DNA of 26,128 nt from a virus: IMG/VR virus record IMGVR_UViG_3300025769_000719, positions 1 to 26,128 of that record; one strand, 5' to 3'. Under the pieces are notes generated by a model. That model saw only the letters and a list, made by a program, of their open reading frames with translations. It searched no databases and was not told the DNA's origin. The position numbers and the translations under genes were made by a program. Numbering within the stretch: position 1 is the stretch's first letter; each line of letters begins with the position of its first letter. Below are positions 3,961-25,118 of this stretch, piece after piece.

Positions 3961-4402
3961 ACAGATTGGTCAGGCTTTCATAGTACGCCTGCCGCATCGC
4001 GGAGTAGCTAAAGATCAGCGCTTCGGGGTCATTGCGTTCAACCGCCAGCAAAGTGTTTGGACCGATGATCCCGTCTACCGCTGAGCTAGACGCGGCTTGC
4101 AGCATCTTGATGGCGCGGGATACGCCAGCGTTGACGGCAAAATCGAACACGCACCAATCAACCCCAGCCGGGAGATCATCGCCGCGCACCTTTTCCCAAT
4201 ACATCTGTTGATAAATTGGCCGCACGTCGTCCTGTGTGAGCGAGCGCATCTCGCCTTCCGTCACGTCTCGCCAGATGAAGCGCTCATATGTGGCTTTGGT
4301 GACGCCCCAGTTAGTCATGCCGCCGGGGTCGTTGGGATGATTCACAAAGCCACCCTCATGCTCCATGAGCCACTCAAAGCAACGGCGAAAGTTGCCGATC
4401 AT
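3884..4402 (-). CDS. Endolysin, GH108-type muramidase with peptidoglycan-binding domain
   Basis: A 172-residue cell-wall hydrolase for host lysis. The N-terminal glycoside hydrolase 108 signature is clear: EHEGGFVNHPNDPGGMTNWG (residues 14-33), with E16 as the likely catalytic acid. The C-terminal half (about 80-150, DWCVFDFAVNAGVSRAIKML, then VDGIIGPNTLLAV) matches the peptidoglycan-binding domain usually paired with GH108. There is no signal peptide, so export would depend on the holin. The start at 4402 forms an ATGA overlap with the holin stop; a longer in-frame ORF reaching 4480 would read through the holin gene and lacks homology. Confidence 0.92.
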   Translation of the reverse strand: MIGNFRRCFEWLMEHEGGFVNHPNDPGGMTNWGVTKATYERFIWRDVTEGEMRSLTQDDVRPIYQQMYWEKVRGDDLPAGVDWCVFDFAVNAGVSRAIKMLQAASSSAVDGIIGPNTLLAVERNDPEALIFSYSAMRQAYYESLTNLFKTFGRGWTRRVEETREQAIHLAQR

Positions 4403-4815
4403 TTTTTGAGCTTTCCGGCTATTTTCTCGCCTGATCGGCCAACCACATAACCGCCAACGCCGATCATCAGCAGGTTCCAAAGCTCGTCCGGCAGCGGGAT
4501 GCTAAGAGCCACTTGCTGCCCAAGCGCGTAGTTGATTATCACCGTCGCAATTGGTGCTAACAGATAATTCCAGCCGACGATAGCCGTGATCGTTAGCATC
4601 AGGATCGGACGCCACGTCGCTGTGATCGTATGCTCAGATTTAGCCTCGGCCATAACGACCTGCGCCGCTGCCTGCTCGATGGCGTGGCTGTTGGTCACGA
4701 GCGCCATGTTCAGTTCGCGCTCGATCTCGGCCCGCTTATTCTGATCCTCCGGCAAAATTCGGCCTAATACGTCACCGATAAGTGGAGCTAGGATTGGGAG
4801 TAGTGCACCGATCAT
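4399..4815 (-). CDS. Holin, three-TM gene-transfer-agent type
   Basis: A 138-residue membrane protein with an N-terminal hydrophobic segment (about 4-21), a charged middle (QNKRAEIERELNMALV), a long hydrophobic region around 68-98 starting TWRPILMLTITAIVGWNYLL, and a last segment at 111-130. This layout, and the ATWRP motif, match the three-TM holin family first noted for GTA release. It would permeabilise the inner membrane so the endolysin can reach the wall. It overlaps both neighbours by ATGA, placing it between a TM/coiled-coil protein and the endolysin in a lysis cassette. Confidence 0.85.
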   Translation of the reverse strand: MIGALLPILAPLIGDVLGRILPEDQNKRAEIERELNMALVTNSHAIEQAAAQVVMAEAKSEHTITATWRPILMLTITAIVGWNYLLAPIATVIINYALGQQVALSIPLPDELWNLLMIGVGGYVVGRSGEKIAGKLKK

Positions 4816-5347: not shown

Positions 5348-5663
5348 TATCGCTCAACACCTCTACCCTAATATACCCGTCATTGGGGAATGTCTCGATA
5401 GTGCTGTCGGAGTAGGTGACTTCGAACTCACAGACGTAGCTACCAGCCGCGGCGGTATCGGCGGCTTGCCATGCATAGCGCACAAGGCCACTGGCGGCCG
5501 TCACCACCGTTGCCGCCGCATCAACAACAGTCGCCGTCGCGCCAGCCCGGCGCATATGGAAGCGAACCGACGCGCCGCTTAGATCGATTGCAACGCCTGC
5601 CGCCGTCGTCAGAGTCGCCTCTAAAATTGGCGAGGTGTCAGACCGCTTGATTTGGAAGGCCAT
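5340..5663 (-). CDS. BppU N-terminal-like virion protein (107 aa)
   Basis: The protein reads MAFQIKRSDTSPILEATL, then GVAIDLSGASVRFHMR, then a beta-rich YAWQAADTAAAGSYVCEFEV. This is the pattern of the N-terminal domain of phage baseplate upper protein BppU, a beta-sandwich that joins receptor-binding parts to the baseplate. Only this domain is present, so it may act as an adaptor. The start at 5663 was chosen from GGAG 9 nt upstream and the family start; the ORF extends to 5777 but that part reads through the preceding gene. It overlaps the repeat protein's 3' end by 26 nt. Confidence 0.72.
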   Translation of the reverse strand: MAFQIKRSDTSPILEATLTTAAGVAIDLSGASVRFHMRRAGATATVVDAAATVVTAASGLVRYAWQAADTAAAGSYVCEFEVTYSDSTIETFPNDGYIRVEVLSDIA

Positions 5664-6414
5664 TGATCGCCGCTCCGTTTCCGCTGGATTGAATGGCGGC
5701 AACATTCGCTGCCGATATTGATACGCGCACAACTCGCGCGGCACTGGCAGCGCCGAACGATGGAGCCAGCGCGCCAATCGTCAACGCCGAGACAGGAGCC
5801 GAGATCGTCGCCCCTGCCAATATACGCGGCGCTTGGCCAGCAACATCTATTGCCGCAATCGGAGCCGAAATCGTGACGCTTGCCGATATGCCGGGCACCA
5901 GGCTCGCGAGAGTGACGCCCGCAACCGGTGCCGAGATCGCAGCTCCAGCAGATATGCCGGGCGCTTGGCCTGCAATATCTATCGCCGCAACCGGTGCCGA
6001 AATCGTCGCCCCTGCCGATATACCCGGCGCTTGGCCAGCAACATCTATCGCCGCGACAGGAGCCGAGATTGTCGCCCCAGCAGATATGCCGGGCGCTTGG
6101 CCTGCAATATCTATCGCCGCAATTGGGGCCGAGATCGTGACGCTTGCCGTCACTGATACGGCAGGCGTTAGGCCAGCGACTGCCATGTCCGCAACGGGCG
6201 CGGAAACAACTGCCCCGATGGCAAGTCCCGGCGCTAGCGCGGCAATCGTAACGACTGCGGATGGGGCCGAAACTACCGCGCCTGCCGATAGGGCAGGGAC
6301 TAGGCCTGCAATTGATACAGCCGCCGATGGCGCGGAAATTGTGACGCCCGCCGCCGCTTCTGCCGCTGGCAGCGCCGCCAATGGCGCAGAGGCGAGAGCG
6401 GCGAAGCCTAGCAT
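5638..6414 (-). CDS. Repeat-rich tail-region protein with 22-residue beta-solenoid-like repeats
   Basis: A 258-residue Ala/Val/Ile/Gly-rich protein built of about ten units marked by an SAP motif at residues 9, 27, 49, 71, 95, 117, 139, 161, 183 and 205. The typical spacing is 22 residues, with a consensus close to TISAPVAAIDIAGQAPGISA. The alternating hydrophobic pattern fits a beta-solenoid or fibrous protein. The C-terminal 35 residues (RVVRVSISAANVAAIQ and on) do not repeat. It has almost no charged residues. The position between adhesin genes and a BppU-like gene suggests a structural or receptor-binding role at the tail tip, but I cannot name a family. It starts 3 nt after the preceding stop, with no strong Shine-Dalgarno. 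Confidence 0.72.
   Translation of the reverse strand: MLGFAALASAPLAALPAAEAAAGVTISAPSAAVSIAGLVPALSAGAVVSAPSAVVTIAALAPGLAIGAVVSAPVADMAVAGLTPAVSVTASVTISAPIAAIDIAGQAPGISAGATISAPVAAIDVAGQAPGISAGATISAPVAAIDIAGQAPGISAGAAISAPVAGVTLASLVPGISASVTISAPIAAIDVAGQAPRILAGATISAPVSALTIGALAPSFGAASAARVVRVSISAANVAAIQSSGNGAAINGLPNQAV
5749..6390 (-). repeat. 66-bp tandem coding repeat, about ten units
   Basis: Units of 66 bp repeat head to tail, with the central ones most alike (about 5930-6140 on the plus strand) and the outer ones diverged. Two units carry a 24- or 18-codon spacing instead of 22. The periodicity holds open a long antisense frame (5693-6421) that I consider a shadow. Confidence 0.88.
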
Positions 6415-14291: not shown

Positions 14292-16382
14292 TTATCTCCT
14301 ATTCAACCGTGTGCTGGCCTCGAACCGCTGGCCTATGGCCCGGTATATCTGCCCACCGCCTGCAATATCGGACGCCACGGCCTTACGGATGATGACGTCA
14401 ATATCCGGCCCATTCTGGCGCGTGTCGACTTCTGCCCCCGCCTGATTGATAATATTCACATTCACGCTAGCGCCGCCGCCAGCGACGCCCAACTTGCCGT
14501 CTGGCCCGCGCGTCAATGGCATGATTGCTTCCGGGCCGGCCTCACCCATCAGGCCTGCGCCCTTCGCCATCGGGAAAAGCGTTGGGCGGTTGATGACGCC
14601 GCCCTTCGCAAATGGTTTAATCTTACCCCGATCCAACACGCCACCCTTAGCCATGCCCGGACCGATGAACGGAACAAACCCACCGCTTGCCATAACGCCA
14701 GCGCCGCTTGCCCCAAGCGCCGCGCTAGCACCATAACCCGCGCCGCCTAAGCCACCGAGAAACCCGCCAATGCCCTTGAACAGCGAGCCGATCAGGCTGG
14801 CCTTGCCAAGCCTGGCGTTTTGAATCTCAATCCGAATTAACTCTTGAATGATAGTGGAGGCCAAGCGCTTGAATGCGTCCCCAGCCGATGCCGATCCGGT
14901 AATGAATTCGCCGAACGCCGTGGAGATTGATTGCTCTAGCGAATTCATCAAATCTTTCATGCCGCTGAGTTCATCTTGCGTTTGTTTTAACTGCCCAATC
15001 AACCGCTCGCGATCAGCAGATGCCTGCTGCTCGGTGATAATGCCCTCCGCCAGCGCGTCATTGACAGCGACAATGGCTTGGCCGGTTTGCTGATACGCCG
15101 AATAAAGCGGATCAATGGAGCCGCGCACGCTATCATAAGCTGCCTGCACATCTCGCAGGCGCTCAACATGATTTGCAGCCATCTTGGCGGCTGCTTCCTC
15201 GCCCTCTGCCACCGCATCGGCATAGGCTTGCAGAGTGGCAAGCTGGCCTTTCCGTAGCATCTCTAGTCGCTTTTCTGCGGCTTCACGCTCGGGTGCTGTC
15301 GACGCTTTTACCCTGCTGCTAGGCGGCTTTGGCGGTTTCGGTCGATCTGGCGCCGCCGGAATACCAACAGTGCCATCGTCGTCATGCTCGCTTGGCAGGA
15401 AATCCTCTAACCGGCGGCGGTTGCTAAGCATATCTTTCAGGCGTTGCGGCGTTCCAGGCTGACCGCCGCGCTTTTCGAGGGTATCATCTATCTGCTTCTC
15501 AATGCGTTTTATCCGCGCACGGATATCTTGTTCATCGATCTCGCTAAAGAAGTTGCGAACCGCGTTATGGGATTTGCCAATGGCAGATGCAACTTGCGCA
15601 ATAAAATGCGCCGCATCCTTCAACAGCGGCGTCAGATCGCCCAAGGCAACGGCAAACTCCGTGTTAATAACTGCAGACGCCAAGGAAAATTCTTCTTTAG
15701 CCGCCTTGGCCTTATCAACCATCTCCTTGTCCATAACGCCGCCGGCGTCTCTGATCTTAGTTGACAGCCGATCCAGTTCGGCTCCGTTGTTGGCAAAAAC
15801 CTTCTGTAACAACGTGCTATCGGATGCAATTGCCTCAAGGTAGAAGGTCATATCAGCTTGCGATAGATTGGCTTTCTCCAGTGCTTGTATGTACTTACCG
15901 AGCTTTTCCTCAGATGACAGTTTAGCAAAGGCGTCCGCTGTCAGGCCAACGGCTGGCGCTATATTCTCAAAAAAATCGGCAAGCGGCCCCGCCCCGGTCT
16001 GCACGAAGTCACCAAATTTATCGTTTACATCCTTGAGGATATCCGCCATCTTTTCGGCGCTAACACCGAATTGCTGCGCGGCGAACGCGACTTCTTGAAA
16101 CCTCTCGACGCTAAGCCCCGCCACCGACGCTAAGTTTCCAAGTTCCGCCGCGGCGTTGATCATGTTTGATATAGCGCGAGCGCCAAACGCCGCAGCAAGC
16201 AATGGCGCTAATCGCTTAGCCGCTGTGCCCAGAGCGGAGAATGATTTTCCGGTCTTTGACAGGTCTTTTTGTGACTTAGCGGCGAACCGCTCCACCCGCT
16301 TTTGGTTGTCCGCCATGGCCTTGGCGAACTGCTTATCCTTGGCGGTTAAGATGATGTTTAGTTCTTGAGCGGAAATTGCCAC
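14292..16382 (-). CDS. Tail tape measure protein (696 aa)
   Basis: This protein sets tail length and lies inside the tube until ejection. The first 60 residues and several later stretches are coiled-coil like (LNIILTAKDKQFAKAMADNQ, IRARIKRIEKQIDDTLEKRG). Hydrophobic segments occur at about 60-80 and 540-580. The C-terminus carries the phage signature FAKGGVINRPTLFPMAKGAG, then MGEAGPEAIMPLTRG. At about 1.5 angstrom per residue it predicts a tail near 100 nm. It starts with GTG 2 nt after the TAA that closes the -1 frameshift extension of the chaperone gene. Confidence 0.92.
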   Translation of the reverse strand: MAISAQELNIILTAKDKQFAKAMADNQKRVERFAAKSQKDLSKTGKSFSALGTAAKRLAPLLAAAFGARAISNMINAAAELGNLASVAGLSVERFQEVAFAAQQFGVSAEKMADILKDVNDKFGDFVQTGAGPLADFFENIAPAVGLTADAFAKLSSEEKLGKYIQALEKANLSQADMTFYLEAIASDSTLLQKVFANNGAELDRLSTKIRDAGGVMDKEMVDKAKAAKEEFSLASAVINTEFAVALGDLTPLLKDAAHFIAQVASAIGKSHNAVRNFFSEIDEQDIRARIKRIEKQIDDTLEKRGGQPGTPQRLKDMLSNRRRLEDFLPSEHDDDGTVGIPAAPDRPKPPKPPSSRVKASTAPEREAAEKRLEMLRKGQLATLQAYADAVAEGEEAAAKMAANHVERLRDVQAAYDSVRGSIDPLYSAYQQTGQAIVAVNDALAEGIITEQQASADRERLIGQLKQTQDELSGMKDLMNSLEQSISTAFGEFITGSASAGDAFKRLASTIIQELIRIEIQNARLGKASLIGSLFKGIGGFLGGLGGAGYGASAALGASGAGVMASGGFVPFIGPGMAKGGVLDRGKIKPFAKGGVINRPTLFPMAKGAGLMGEAGPEAIMPLTRGPDGKLGVAGGGASVNVNIINQAGAEVDTRQNGPDIDVIIRKAVASDIAGGGQIYRAIGQRFEASTRLNRR

Positions 16383-16384
16383 TT

Positions 16385-16606
16385 TTATCCGTACCTTTCC
16401 GCCAACGCCCTCGCATCAGCTAAGCTGGGCGCGTCGCTGCCAGGCTGTTTTGGACTGTTTGCCTTCTGCCAACCATCGAATACTAGCCGAACATCACGCG
16501 GGATCATAGCACGGATTTCGACGGGCTTTAGGCCGGCGACGATCCCGCTTCGGATAAGGGATCGGACGTTAAATCTGCCGTCGCCTTTCGAACCCGCTTT
16601 TTTTTT
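16385..16606 (-). CDS. -1 frameshift extension of the tail assembly chaperone
   Basis: From the nine-A run the -1 frame stays open for 70 codons after the slippery site and ends in TAA at 16387-16385, right before the tape measure. It has no Shine-Dalgarno or suitable start of its own and reads LIRSGIVAGLKPVEIRAM, then PRDVRLVFDGWQKA and ADARALAERYG. Fusing it to the preceding ORF would give a protein of about 188 residues, as for lambda gpG-T. The fusion product normally binds the tape measure and tube subunits. Confidence 0.72.
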   Translation of the reverse strand, partial: KKKAGSKGDGRFNVRSLIRSGIVAGLKPVEIRAMIPRDVRLVFDGWQKANSPKQPGSDAPSLADARALAERYG

Positions 16607-16950
16607 ACAGTTGGCGTCTGATCCAGCGCATCAGGCATGAGAGCGATTCCCAACACCGCCTGGGCAATCTGGTAATAGCGGAGCAGCATCTCAGCGCCGC
16701 CCGCCTCGATGATCTTGTCAGCTTGCGCATCAGACTTGCCGCCACCGACCAATGCTAGCGCCAGCAAATCCTTTACCTCTTTTGACGTCGGTTTTTGCCC
16801 GCGCCCAAAGAAGCCATCCCATAGATCAAATATCCCGCGGTGCTGATCTTCAAAGCGCTCAATTTCGGCGCAGCGCAGCAAGAACACATGGGAGGCGTTG
16901 CCAACTATTTCGACAACGCCTCCGCGCGGGGCCTTAGCCGTGATCGTCAT
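16528..16950 (-). CDS. Tail assembly chaperone, unshifted product (140 aa)
   Basis: A 140-residue protein lying between the tail tube and tape-measure genes, where siphoviruses encode their tail chaperone. It is helical and acidic (SHVFLLRCAEIERFEDQHRG, IFDLWDGFFG, later AEMLLRYYQIAQAVLGIA). Family members bind the tape measure during tail assembly and are usually made in two lengths by frameshifting. Here codons 115-118 read through a nine-A run, and the unshifted frame ends 22 residues further on. It shares one base with the preceding stop at 16950. Confidence 0.85.
   Translation of the reverse strand: MTITAKAPRGGVVEIVGNASHVFLLRCAEIERFEDQHRGIFDLWDGFFGRGQKPTSKEVKDLLALALVGGGKSDAQADKIIEAGGAEMLLRYYQIAQAVLGIALMPDALDQTPTVKKKRVRKATADLTSDPLSEAGSSPA
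16597..16606 (-). promoter_or_regulatory. Slippery run for -1 programmed frameshifting
   Basis: On the minus strand nine A residues (16606-16598) are followed by G. In the zero frame this includes A AAA AAG (16603-16597), the classic -1 slippery heptamer of E. coli dnaX, and A AAA AAA before it. A 7-bp stem (16540-16546 with 16558-16564, loop of 11) lies 32 nt downstream, farther than usual for a stimulator. Confidence 0.8.
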
Positions 16951-17378
16951 TATGCCGCCGTGAACGTCACCGCGCCATTAGACTCAAGCGAGGCTGAGAA
17001 CGTGACCGCGCCCTCCGTGTCACCGCCAAAGTCAAGCGATGTGACGCGGAATTCGCCGGCATACGTCCCGAAGTCTGGCACGACAATCTCAAAATTGGCG
17101 ACCGGATCTGCCTGCATGGCAATGGTATTAAGCCGGCCTTCCTGAGCGCTTTCGTCGAGGAAAATGCCGTCGCCAGACAGGCTGACCGACTTTAGGCCGT
17201 TCAGGCTTTGCGCCCAGAGCGCGCCACCCGGCGTGGCCGCGTCTGGCGTCGTCACGTCGATTGCGGTATTGTTAATGGTCAGACTTTTGCTGTTCATGCC
17301 GGCAAATGCCGTGAACGCCTCAGACGCAGCACCATCGCCGATTTTTAGCAGTAGAGAGCGGCCTAATTGTTTTGCCAT
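16950..17378 (-). CDS. Major tail tube protein (142 aa)
   Basis: The protein starts MAKQLGRSLLLKIGDGAASE and has a beta-rich pattern typical of tube subunits: KSLTINNTAIDVTTPDAATP, then LNGLKSVSLSGDGIFLDE, and later VNFEIV-type strands ending EGAVTFSASLESNGAVTFTA. It would polymerise as hexameric rings into the non-contractile tail tube. GGA lies 9 nt upstream of the ATG. A 54-nt non-coding gap (17379-17432) precedes it; I see nothing else there. Confidence 0.85.
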   Translation of the reverse strand: MAKQLGRSLLLKIGDGAASEAFTAFAGMNSKSLTINNTAIDVTTPDAATPGGALWAQSLNGLKSVSLSGDGIFLDESAQEGRLNTIAMQADPVANFEIVVPDFGTYAGEFRVTSLDFGGDTEGAVTFSASLESNGAVTFTAA

Positions 17379-22923: not shown

Positions 22924-24435
22924 CTAGACAGCCATCCTATAGCCGGGATCATCCCAAGGAGAACTATATTGCACGATTTCCTCGCCAATGCAACCTAAAG
23001 CCATCGTCAGTGCCACCATGCCATCAATCTTAGCATACGACTTTGCCTTGTTCAACTTCCGATTGCCGGCAGGATCTCGCTGCACCACTGCCCCAGCAGC
23101 GCACATGTTTAAGATAGGATTATCACCATGGCAGAGCTTGCGCTCCGCCACCAAACGCTCCACCGTATCAACGGCGGGTGCCATATCTTTGAAGCCCTGC
23201 CCGAATGGCTTCATGGGAATATCCGCGCCGATGATGTCGAGTTCGCGTTTGAAGTCGTTAATCCGCCAGCGGTCATAGGCCAGCATGCGCAGATCATACC
23301 GCTCCGCCGCTTCTGCAACGGCTTGCGCCACCACGGCAGGGACAATTACCGGCCCAGGAATGGTGGTCAGGAAGCCTTGATCAGCCCAAATATCATAGGG
23401 CACGCGCTCCGCTCGCGACTTCTCCCGGAGCCCATCGGCGGGTAAGAAGAATTGCGGCACGATGTGGAACGTGTCGCCTTTCGGAAACGCCAGGACGAAC
23501 GCCGTCAAGTCGCGGCTTGCTGACAGGTCGAGCCCCGCAAAGCAGACATCACCGTCATCAATTGCCGGTGGCTCATTGTTCGCTTGCCATTCGCCCTTGC
23601 TCAAAAATGGGCTTTCCGCTTCAATCCGCTGGTTCAGGTAGAGCCAACGGAAGCTGTTCTCTTTCGACGGCAGCCGCGCGGCTTGCTTGGCAAAGTCCTG
23701 CATGTCCTGGAGCGAGCGAAATTTGCCAAGCGCCGGATTTGCGGCGCGCCACGCCTTGCGGTCTGACAGTTCGCAATCCTGCGGCGCGGTGTAGAGATGG
23801 CAAACGATCCGCCTGTCGTTTGCCGTTTGCGCGTCATCCAGCCAGACGGAAAACAGATCGCCATCGGTCGCCGCCTGCGTACTGATTGCAATCAACAGCG
23901 GGTCGGCGTGCGCGCCCTGGGCCGTTTCGATTGCCTCCACAAAAGCATCCGCTGGCCCGCGAACCTGCCCCACTTCATCCAAGATCGCCAGCACGGGAGA
24001 GAGCCCGTGCGCCGTGCCCGCCTCGGCGCTGATGGCTTTGTATTCGACATTCCGCGCCAGGCCTATCAGCGATTTTTGAGAAGGCACGATCTTGATTAGC
24101 TGGCTCAATATCGGCGAAAGCCGAACCATCTTTTCTGCTAGCTTGAACACCAGCGCCGCTTGGTCACGGCTTCTCGCCCCGCTGATAATCTGGCTGTTGA
24201 TTCGCGCCTCTGGCCCGGCAATATGGGCAAGCAAGATCGCGGCGATTAGAGCGCTTTTCCCATTTTTGCGCGCAACGCTGAGATAGGCGCGGCTTGTACC
24301 CGCCGGGTTATCGTAAATATCTTTGATGAACCGTTTTTGGAATGGCATCAGCTTGAACGGCTTGCCTACGTCCGCCCCTTCCGGGATCGGGCATAGCTGT
24401 TCAATGAATGCGATGATGCGTGCGCTACGGGTCAC
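22924..24435 (-). CDS. Terminase large subunit (503 aa)
   Basis: The packaging motor and nuclease. The ATPase domain has Walker A VARKNGKS (54-61), Walker B VLAILDE (148-154) and the coupling motif ISTQ (184-187). The nuclease domain has GLDLSASRD (301-309, D303), AYDRW (386-390, D388) and KIDGMVAL (469-476, D471), the three metal-binding acidic positions expected in an RNase H-like fold. The gene overlaps the Mom-like gene by ATGA and touches the portal gene. Confidence 0.95.
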   Translation of the reverse strand: MTRSARIIAFIEQLCPIPEGADVGKPFKLMPFQKRFIKDIYDNPAGTSRAYLSVARKNGKSALIAAILLAHIAGPEARINSQIISGARSRDQAALVFKLAEKMVRLSPILSQLIKIVPSQKSLIGLARNVEYKAISAEAGTAHGLSPVLAILDEVGQVRGPADAFVEAIETAQGAHADPLLIAISTQAATDGDLFSVWLDDAQTANDRRIVCHLYTAPQDCELSDRKAWRAANPALGKFRSLQDMQDFAKQAARLPSKENSFRWLYLNQRIEAESPFLSKGEWQANNEPPAIDDGDVCFAGLDLSASRDLTAFVLAFPKGDTFHIVPQFFLPADGLREKSRAERVPYDIWADQGFLTTIPGPVIVPAVVAQAVAEAAERYDLRMLAYDRWRINDFKRELDIIGADIPMKPFGQGFKDMAPAVDTVERLVAERKLCHGDNPILNMCAAGAVVQRDPAGNRKLNKAKSYAKIDGMVALTMALGCIGEEIVQYSSPWDDPGYRMAV

Positions 24436-25118
24436 GCTGAAACCTTTGGAGCGTGCGGGTCAGTGCCGCCCTGCCGCTGTGCCGACGGGGAGTCGGTCAT
24501 CGCCTGCTTCGCACGCTTGGGGTATGGTTTTGCAAGTGGTAGTATACGCGCACGCATGTCTGCGTCTAGGGGCATGAGGTATCGGTGTTTGCCGGGAACA
24601 TCGACAACGGTTGCGTTTGGATCAATTTTCCGCGCGCCGTGAATATTTTGCACCAATCCCTTTGCACCTATTGACCGTGGGTGCGTCAGCTTCCCCCGGA
24701 TCATGTAAAACTTTGCTGGATCGCCTTGTCCATTATAGACCCAATTTCCGGCTTGATAGATGCCGCCGTGATGGCCTTGTGACTGATCTGCAAACGAAAC
24801 GATCAACCGCAGTTTGGGATTTGCCTTGTGCAAAAACTTCATTGCCAATGCTGAAATGCGCGAAACGGCGTTTTCGTGCTTAGTCAATGCTATCCTGACA
24901 AGCTCCACACATTCATCTTGGCCAAGGTTATACGGCTTGCCGAGGTTGGGTGTTGCGCCTCGCCCAAACAAAACCACGCCAATAAACTTTCCGCTCTCCC
25001 ACGCTCCAACTTTTACAAGTTTCCCGATGGGCAAGCACCCGCTATAATGCCAATTCTCGCAGGCATACTTTGCGGCGGCATGCGTCGCCCAGTCAATCCG
25101 CAGATCAGCCTTGGCCAT
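24432..25118 (-). CDS. Mom-like DNA adenine hypermodification protein (228 aa)
   Basis: The sequence matches the Mom family of phage DNA modification proteins: NWHYSGCLPIGKLVKVGAWE, FIGVVLFGRGATPNLG, ECVELVRIAL (69-78), SFADQSQGHHGGIYQAGNWV (108-127) and KHRYLMPLDADMRARI. Phage Mu Mom, a GNAT-fold enzyme, converts adenine to a carbamoylmethyl form that blocks many restriction enzymes. That this protein does the same is inference from the family. It lies between a ParB-domain gene and the large terminase, not with the early genes. Its start overlaps the ParB gene by 14 nt. Confidence 0.8.
   Translation of the reverse strand: MAKADLRIDWATHAAAKYACENWHYSGCLPIGKLVKVGAWESGKFIGVVLFGRGATPNLGKPYNLGQDECVELVRIALTKHENAVSRISALAMKFLHKANPKLRLIVSFADQSQGHHGGIYQAGNWVYNGQGDPAKFYMIRGKLTHPRSIGAKGLVQNIHGARKIDPNATVVDVPGKHRYLMPLDADMRARILPLAKPYPKRAKQAMTDSPSAQRQGGTDPHAPKVSA

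Follow-up and report, generated by a model that had tools for sequence, protein, structure and literature searches.

The tail assembly chaperone gene on the minus strand of the window (the whole 26,128-nucleotide stretch of viral DNA analyzed here) is almost certainly, as judged from sequence comparison, a two-product gene of the gpG/gpGT type, because a second reading frame overlaps it, lacks a start codon of its own and is conserved among relatives. The two frames meet at a run of nine adenines (A9). Slippage of RNA polymerase on this run is probably the main mechanism that connects them, because the length of the run is kept whatever its codon phase and both shift directions occur among orthologues.

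Layout of the chaperone locus

The zero frame of the chaperone (16528..16950, minus strand) runs from an ATG at 16950 to a TAA at 16530–16528 and would give a short product of 140 amino acids. As expected for a gene of the gpG/gpGT type, it is placed between the major tail (tube) protein gene upstream (16950..17378, minus strand; PF06199, E 4e-28), whose stop codon shares one base with the chaperone ATG, and the tape measure gene (14292..16382, minus strand; phrog_2854, E 2e-71), which starts with a GTG at 16382. Close to the 3' end of the chaperone gene, the nine adenines at 16606–16598 (minus strand; GTA AAA AAA AAG in the zero frame) make up the slip site, which holds in-register A AAA AAA and A AAA AAG heptamers. 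No other A or T run in the window, on either strand, is as long as eight. The −1 frame is open from past a TGA at 16633–16631 to a TAA at 16387–16385. The extension that begins past AAG in this frame (16385..16597, minus strand) comprises 70 codons and the stop, which is separated from the tape measure GTG by 2 nt; the zero-frame stop lies 145 nt from the tape measure gene. The surrounding module encodes a prohead protease, phage capsid, portal, terminase, connectors, DUF1833, NlpC/P60 and J-like tip proteins.

The zero-frame product is GTA-gp10-like (PF11836, Phage_TAC_11). The match of the window protein (E 2.2e-5, 24.9 bits) is under the curated cut-off of 27.8 bits; all 17 aligned relatives match the same family (E up to 1, best 2.3e-10), and homologue G001 scores above the cut-off with 32.6 bits. 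In the AlphaFold model, the chaperone core is folded to about residue 104 and is followed by a low-confidence linker that contains A9, and the model of the extension consists of four helices (pLDDT 81). A fold search of the PDB with both models gave no match at E < 1.

Two further minus-strand genes of the window were recorded: one for a Mom-family protein (24432–25118; PF25680, E 2e-47), a candidate for counter-restriction by DNA modification, and one for a repetitive protein (5638–6414) with units like GATISAPVAAIDVAGQAPGIS and without a Pfam match.

The extension domain and its relatives

The comparison drew on 152 distinct DNA sequences that contain both domains, taken from IMG/VR, phage records and the genomes of alphaproteobacteria; Roseovarius and Salipiger prophages (L062 and L057) are among the relatives. 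Conservation of the extension reaches relatives with as little as about 35–40% identity, so the open −1 frame is not a product of chance. Its length falls within a narrow range of 62 to 82 amino acids, and the zero-frame tail past the run is highly variable. Codon comparison indicates that the extension is under purifying selection: in one pair of loci (L001 and L008), 21 changes at 52 synonymous sites were counted along with 7 changes at 158 nonsynonymous sites. Where the frames overlap, L006 and L007 show two changes, both of which leave the −1 product unaltered and replace residues in the zero frame.

On profile evidence, the extension, with its folded part at 16388..16573 (minus strand), is a remote homologue of g10.1 (PF09550, Phage_TAC_6), which gene transfer agents (GTAs) encode as a gene of its own. 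Alignment of the extension family with GTA g10.1 by hhalign gave a probability of 94.6% (E 7e-8), and only 39.5% with a narrower set of 16 extension sequences. PF09550 is matched by 10 of 30 extension relatives (best 1.5e-5), and the extension profile retrieves the GTA genes L313 and L314 in host genomes. The extension of the window itself has no match in Pfam or PHROGs, and PF09550 was not found in the record of the window. As a separate observation, the same phage has a further GTA-like gene, which encodes a three-helix holin of GTA type (4399–4815, minus strand; PF11351).

The standing of g10.1 in GTAs raises the alternative that the downstream domain is likewise an independent gene, translated from a start codon of its own. 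GTA g10.1 stands alone with an ATG, mostly located at the g10 stop and mostly 9–24 nt ahead of the domain. In the −1 frame of the window, on the other hand, no ATG, GTG or TTG precedes the domain, and the first ATG (16507) is mid-domain. Start codons within 75 nt upstream of the domain are likewise absent in 121 of 150 loci, and the remaining 29 have only TTG or GTG codons, mostly at the first residues of the domain. On this survey of the window and 150 loci, an independent start for the extension was rejected, and a separate gene is very improbable here.

An earlier, sequence-only reading of this region had placed the end of the zero frame at 16528, about 145 nt before the tape measure with no independent gene between, and had described a 70-codon −1 frame ending 2 nt before the tape measure start; these coordinates were right, and the frame is intact in relatives. 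Its assignment of the gene to the tail chaperones with gpG/gpGT architecture is backed by position and relatives, and its choice of the nine-A run as the slip site by relatives. It had also suggested conservation of the extension frame in related phages as a check, and the extension is conserved in 152 distinct homologous loci. Neither stops in the −1 frame of close relatives nor an independent start for the downstream frame in the window or the 150 loci, both of which it had named as refuting observations, were found.

The slip site across relatives

A run of exactly nine adenines is present in 130 of the 152 sequences, with the extension in the −1 frame in 125 and in the +1 frame in five. 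Among the −1 loci, A9 stands in phase 2 in 63, in phase 0 in 54 and in phase 1 in eight, and is followed by G in 120 and by C in five. The −1 extension is also joined through A10 in four loci and through A6 or A7 in 13, and two loci are without a run. The short sites are phase-locked, 12 of the 13 presenting A AAA AAG in register and one A AAA AAA, and this locking distinguishes them from A9 (Fisher p 4e-4, descent ignored). In L059 and L169, the A run has been lost and its place is taken by an in-register G GGA AAG, the heptamer of lambda itself. On a tree of 101 representatives, built by a quick method and with many weak forks, at least 10 phase changes of the long runs and at least nine changes between long-run and short-site classes were counted.

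Elsewhere in the representative loci, 621 kb of sequence on the same strand are free of A or T runs that reach a length of nine, which is consistent with avoidance of slippage-prone runs, visible from length nine upward in many bacterial genomes (PMC1088944). A9 also has the length typical of programmed transcriptional realignment, for which a homopolymer of at least about eight is expected where the frames change.

Three observations concern individual sites. A distant relative, L174 (reverse strand), has a −1 extension with only GGAAAAG and without a canonical slip site. In L050 (5331–5363), a single gene has two candidate slip sites, A9 and, 26 nt further, A AAA AAG. Many Rhodobacteraceae relatives (e.g., L060, L064, L067 and L068) have a (G)NTGGATCG motif after the run, which recurs at the nucleotide level and is read differently in each frame.

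The opposite-frame clade consists of six contigs from six metagenomes (L009, L010 and L012–L015). Sixteen bases, CTGTAAAAAAAAAGCG, are common to this clade and the window, and the extension of the clade is intact and 73% identical to that of the window. It is placed in the +1 frame because the sequence that follows the run differs in length, and the few sequence differences within the clade extension are mostly synonymous. The occurrence of both directions among orthologues is the published criterion for transcriptional realignment (PMC3711429), and both directions are found here, the +1 direction in this clade and in one lone contig, L199. Sequence comparison places near relatives with the same site in the −1 and the +1 frame, which would be natural for polymerase slippage, where an A can be gained or lost.

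Shift mechanism and alternatives

The main alternative is ribosomal −1 programmed frameshifting, in which two tRNA-Lys would move back by one base on either of two heptamers in the run, A AAA AAG or A AAA AAA; a two-tRNA −1 slip of this kind is known in lambda G/GT and Escherichia coli dnaX. The heptamer is in register at the window site, and, since an in-register A AAA AAA occurs in every A9, ribosomal slippage would be possible at all A9 sites. Furthermore, ribosomal slippage is surely a fitting explanation for the homologues with A6, A7 or G GGA AAG, nearly all relatives keep the −1 direction, and only one clade is +1, which speaks against a transcriptional origin. However, A AAA AAG would need six, seven or eight adenines depending on the phase, whereas nine are kept in all phases, and the +1 clade has an identical site. 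A single shift direction among orthologues would be expected of ribosomal −1 frameshifting (PMC3711429), and six +1 contigs depart from it, although a −2 ribosomal shift could be an alternative for this clade. No conserved downstream structure stands out either. The 50 nt downstream of the window run fold no better than shuffles (z −0.56), the mean downstream folding z is −0.60 in the A9 class and −1.29 in the short class (p 0.15, for pseudoknot-free folding), and no upstream hairpin was found (mean z −0.2). Not every ribosomal frameshift site has a stimulating structure. The 7-bp stem noted by the sequence-only reading, CGATCCC/GGGATCG, is indeed present about 33 nt downstream; its suggested contribution was rejected, because L009, L011 and L016 do not retain the stem and the downstream sequence is no more stable than shuffles. 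The ribosomal −1 shift at A AAA AAG that the same reading proposed is not the best interpretation, given that A9 is kept in any phase and that the clade with an identical site is +1, and we regard ribosomal slippage as possible but rather unlikely to be the main mechanism.

It is extremely improbable that the true gene occupies one frame and that DNA-level phase variation or a homopolymer assembly error separates its halves. Two single contigs would fit such an explanation, L252 with A10 and the extension in frame (near 1815–1824) and L199 with A8 and the extension in +1 (near 2977–2984), as would the natural in-frame fusion of Rhodobacter phage RcapNL; these two contigs may represent assembly errors, real variants or RNA-derived contigs. 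Isolates and metagenomes, by contrast, agree on A9. Length-tolerant scans gave A9 in 14 of 14 contigs (eight of the window clade and six of the L009 clade) and no A8 or A10 DNA variant, which refutes phase variation or sequencing error for the clade of the window.

Under RNA-polymerase slippage, most transcripts would carry the templated nine adenines and yield the short chaperone. A minority may gain one A (or 3n+1) as the polymerase slips on the run, and normal translation of these lengthened transcripts would enter the −1 frame and produce the fusion with the g10.1-like domain. One added A would give the same junction, TVKKKAGSK, as a ribosomal −1 shift, and four added A's would give a product with an extra Lys. 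By analogy with lambda, the fusion could recruit the tail tube protein to the tape measure. Selection would keep nine adenines, presumably as the length that sets the ratio of short to long product, and part of the fusion may additionally come from ribosomes that slip by −1 on these adenines. For this large family of alphaproteobacterial siphophages as a whole, the comparison of sites suggests, as the likelier course of events, that the chaperone switch moved from the ribosome to RNA polymerase, with a selected A9 setting the ratio, repeated swaps with A AAA AAG and G GGA AAG, and one clade using the opposite slip product.

The gene is similar to lambda gpG/gpGT and other siphophage chaperone frameshifts in its position between tube protein and tape measure, and to the lambda pair in its predicted short chaperone plus longer fusion, with the shift placed shortly before the first frame ends. 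In contrast to the phase-locked heptamer of lambda, A9 is phase-independent here, one clade shifts the opposite way, and the protein families are of the GTA-gp10 and g10.1 kinds. Conservation of the siphophage tail-chaperone frameshift was reported by Xu, Hendrix and Duda in 2004, as cited in PMC5009743. In dnaX of Thermus thermophilus, transcriptional slippage also takes place on A9 (Larsen 2000, as described in PMC1088944 and PMC3711429), and in these descriptions its homologues use either transcriptional slippage or ribosomal A AAA AAG, as here; it is a different gene, and its slipped product is the shorter one, whereas here it would be the longer. IS630-type transposases, which employ poly-A programmed transcriptional realignment (PMC3711429 and PMC1088944), likewise join two frames by an A run with +1 and −1 among orthologues, in a mobile-element gene rather than in phage tail assembly.

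The tail-chaperone frameshift is a textbook case of evolutionarily kept ribosomal recoding. Within the open-access literature searched, most subscription papers lying outside the search, no report of transcriptional slippage as a tail-chaperone mechanism was found. If polymerase slippage is correct, the switch can alternate between a transcriptional and a translational form with its outcome unchanged; such a change is known for dnaX and insertion sequences, and was not encountered for phage tail chaperones in the open-access papers searched. Prediction tools limited to heptamers or to a single direction would misread such genes, and the pair of clades that share an identical slip site and differ in the direction of the frame constitutes a ready natural experiment.

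RcGTA-type g10 and g10.1 of the Rhodobacterales form a homologous domain pair in the same order. Unlike in the window, each of them is a gene by itself, g10.1 starting at its own ATG, and the A run is not present in g10/g10.1 of the GTAs compared. Both domains are in one frame in RcapNL, in Rhizobium phage X2_26 and in the host-genome ORFs L311 and L312. Together with the slip sites, the GTA pairs and these in-frame fusions indicate that the two domains are linked in four ways: as separate genes, by in-frame fusion, through heptamers and through A9. In the one-frame fusion of RcapNL (L051, 3001–3573), A7 is kept between the domains, and a slip there would yield a short product, the reverse of the arrangement in the window.
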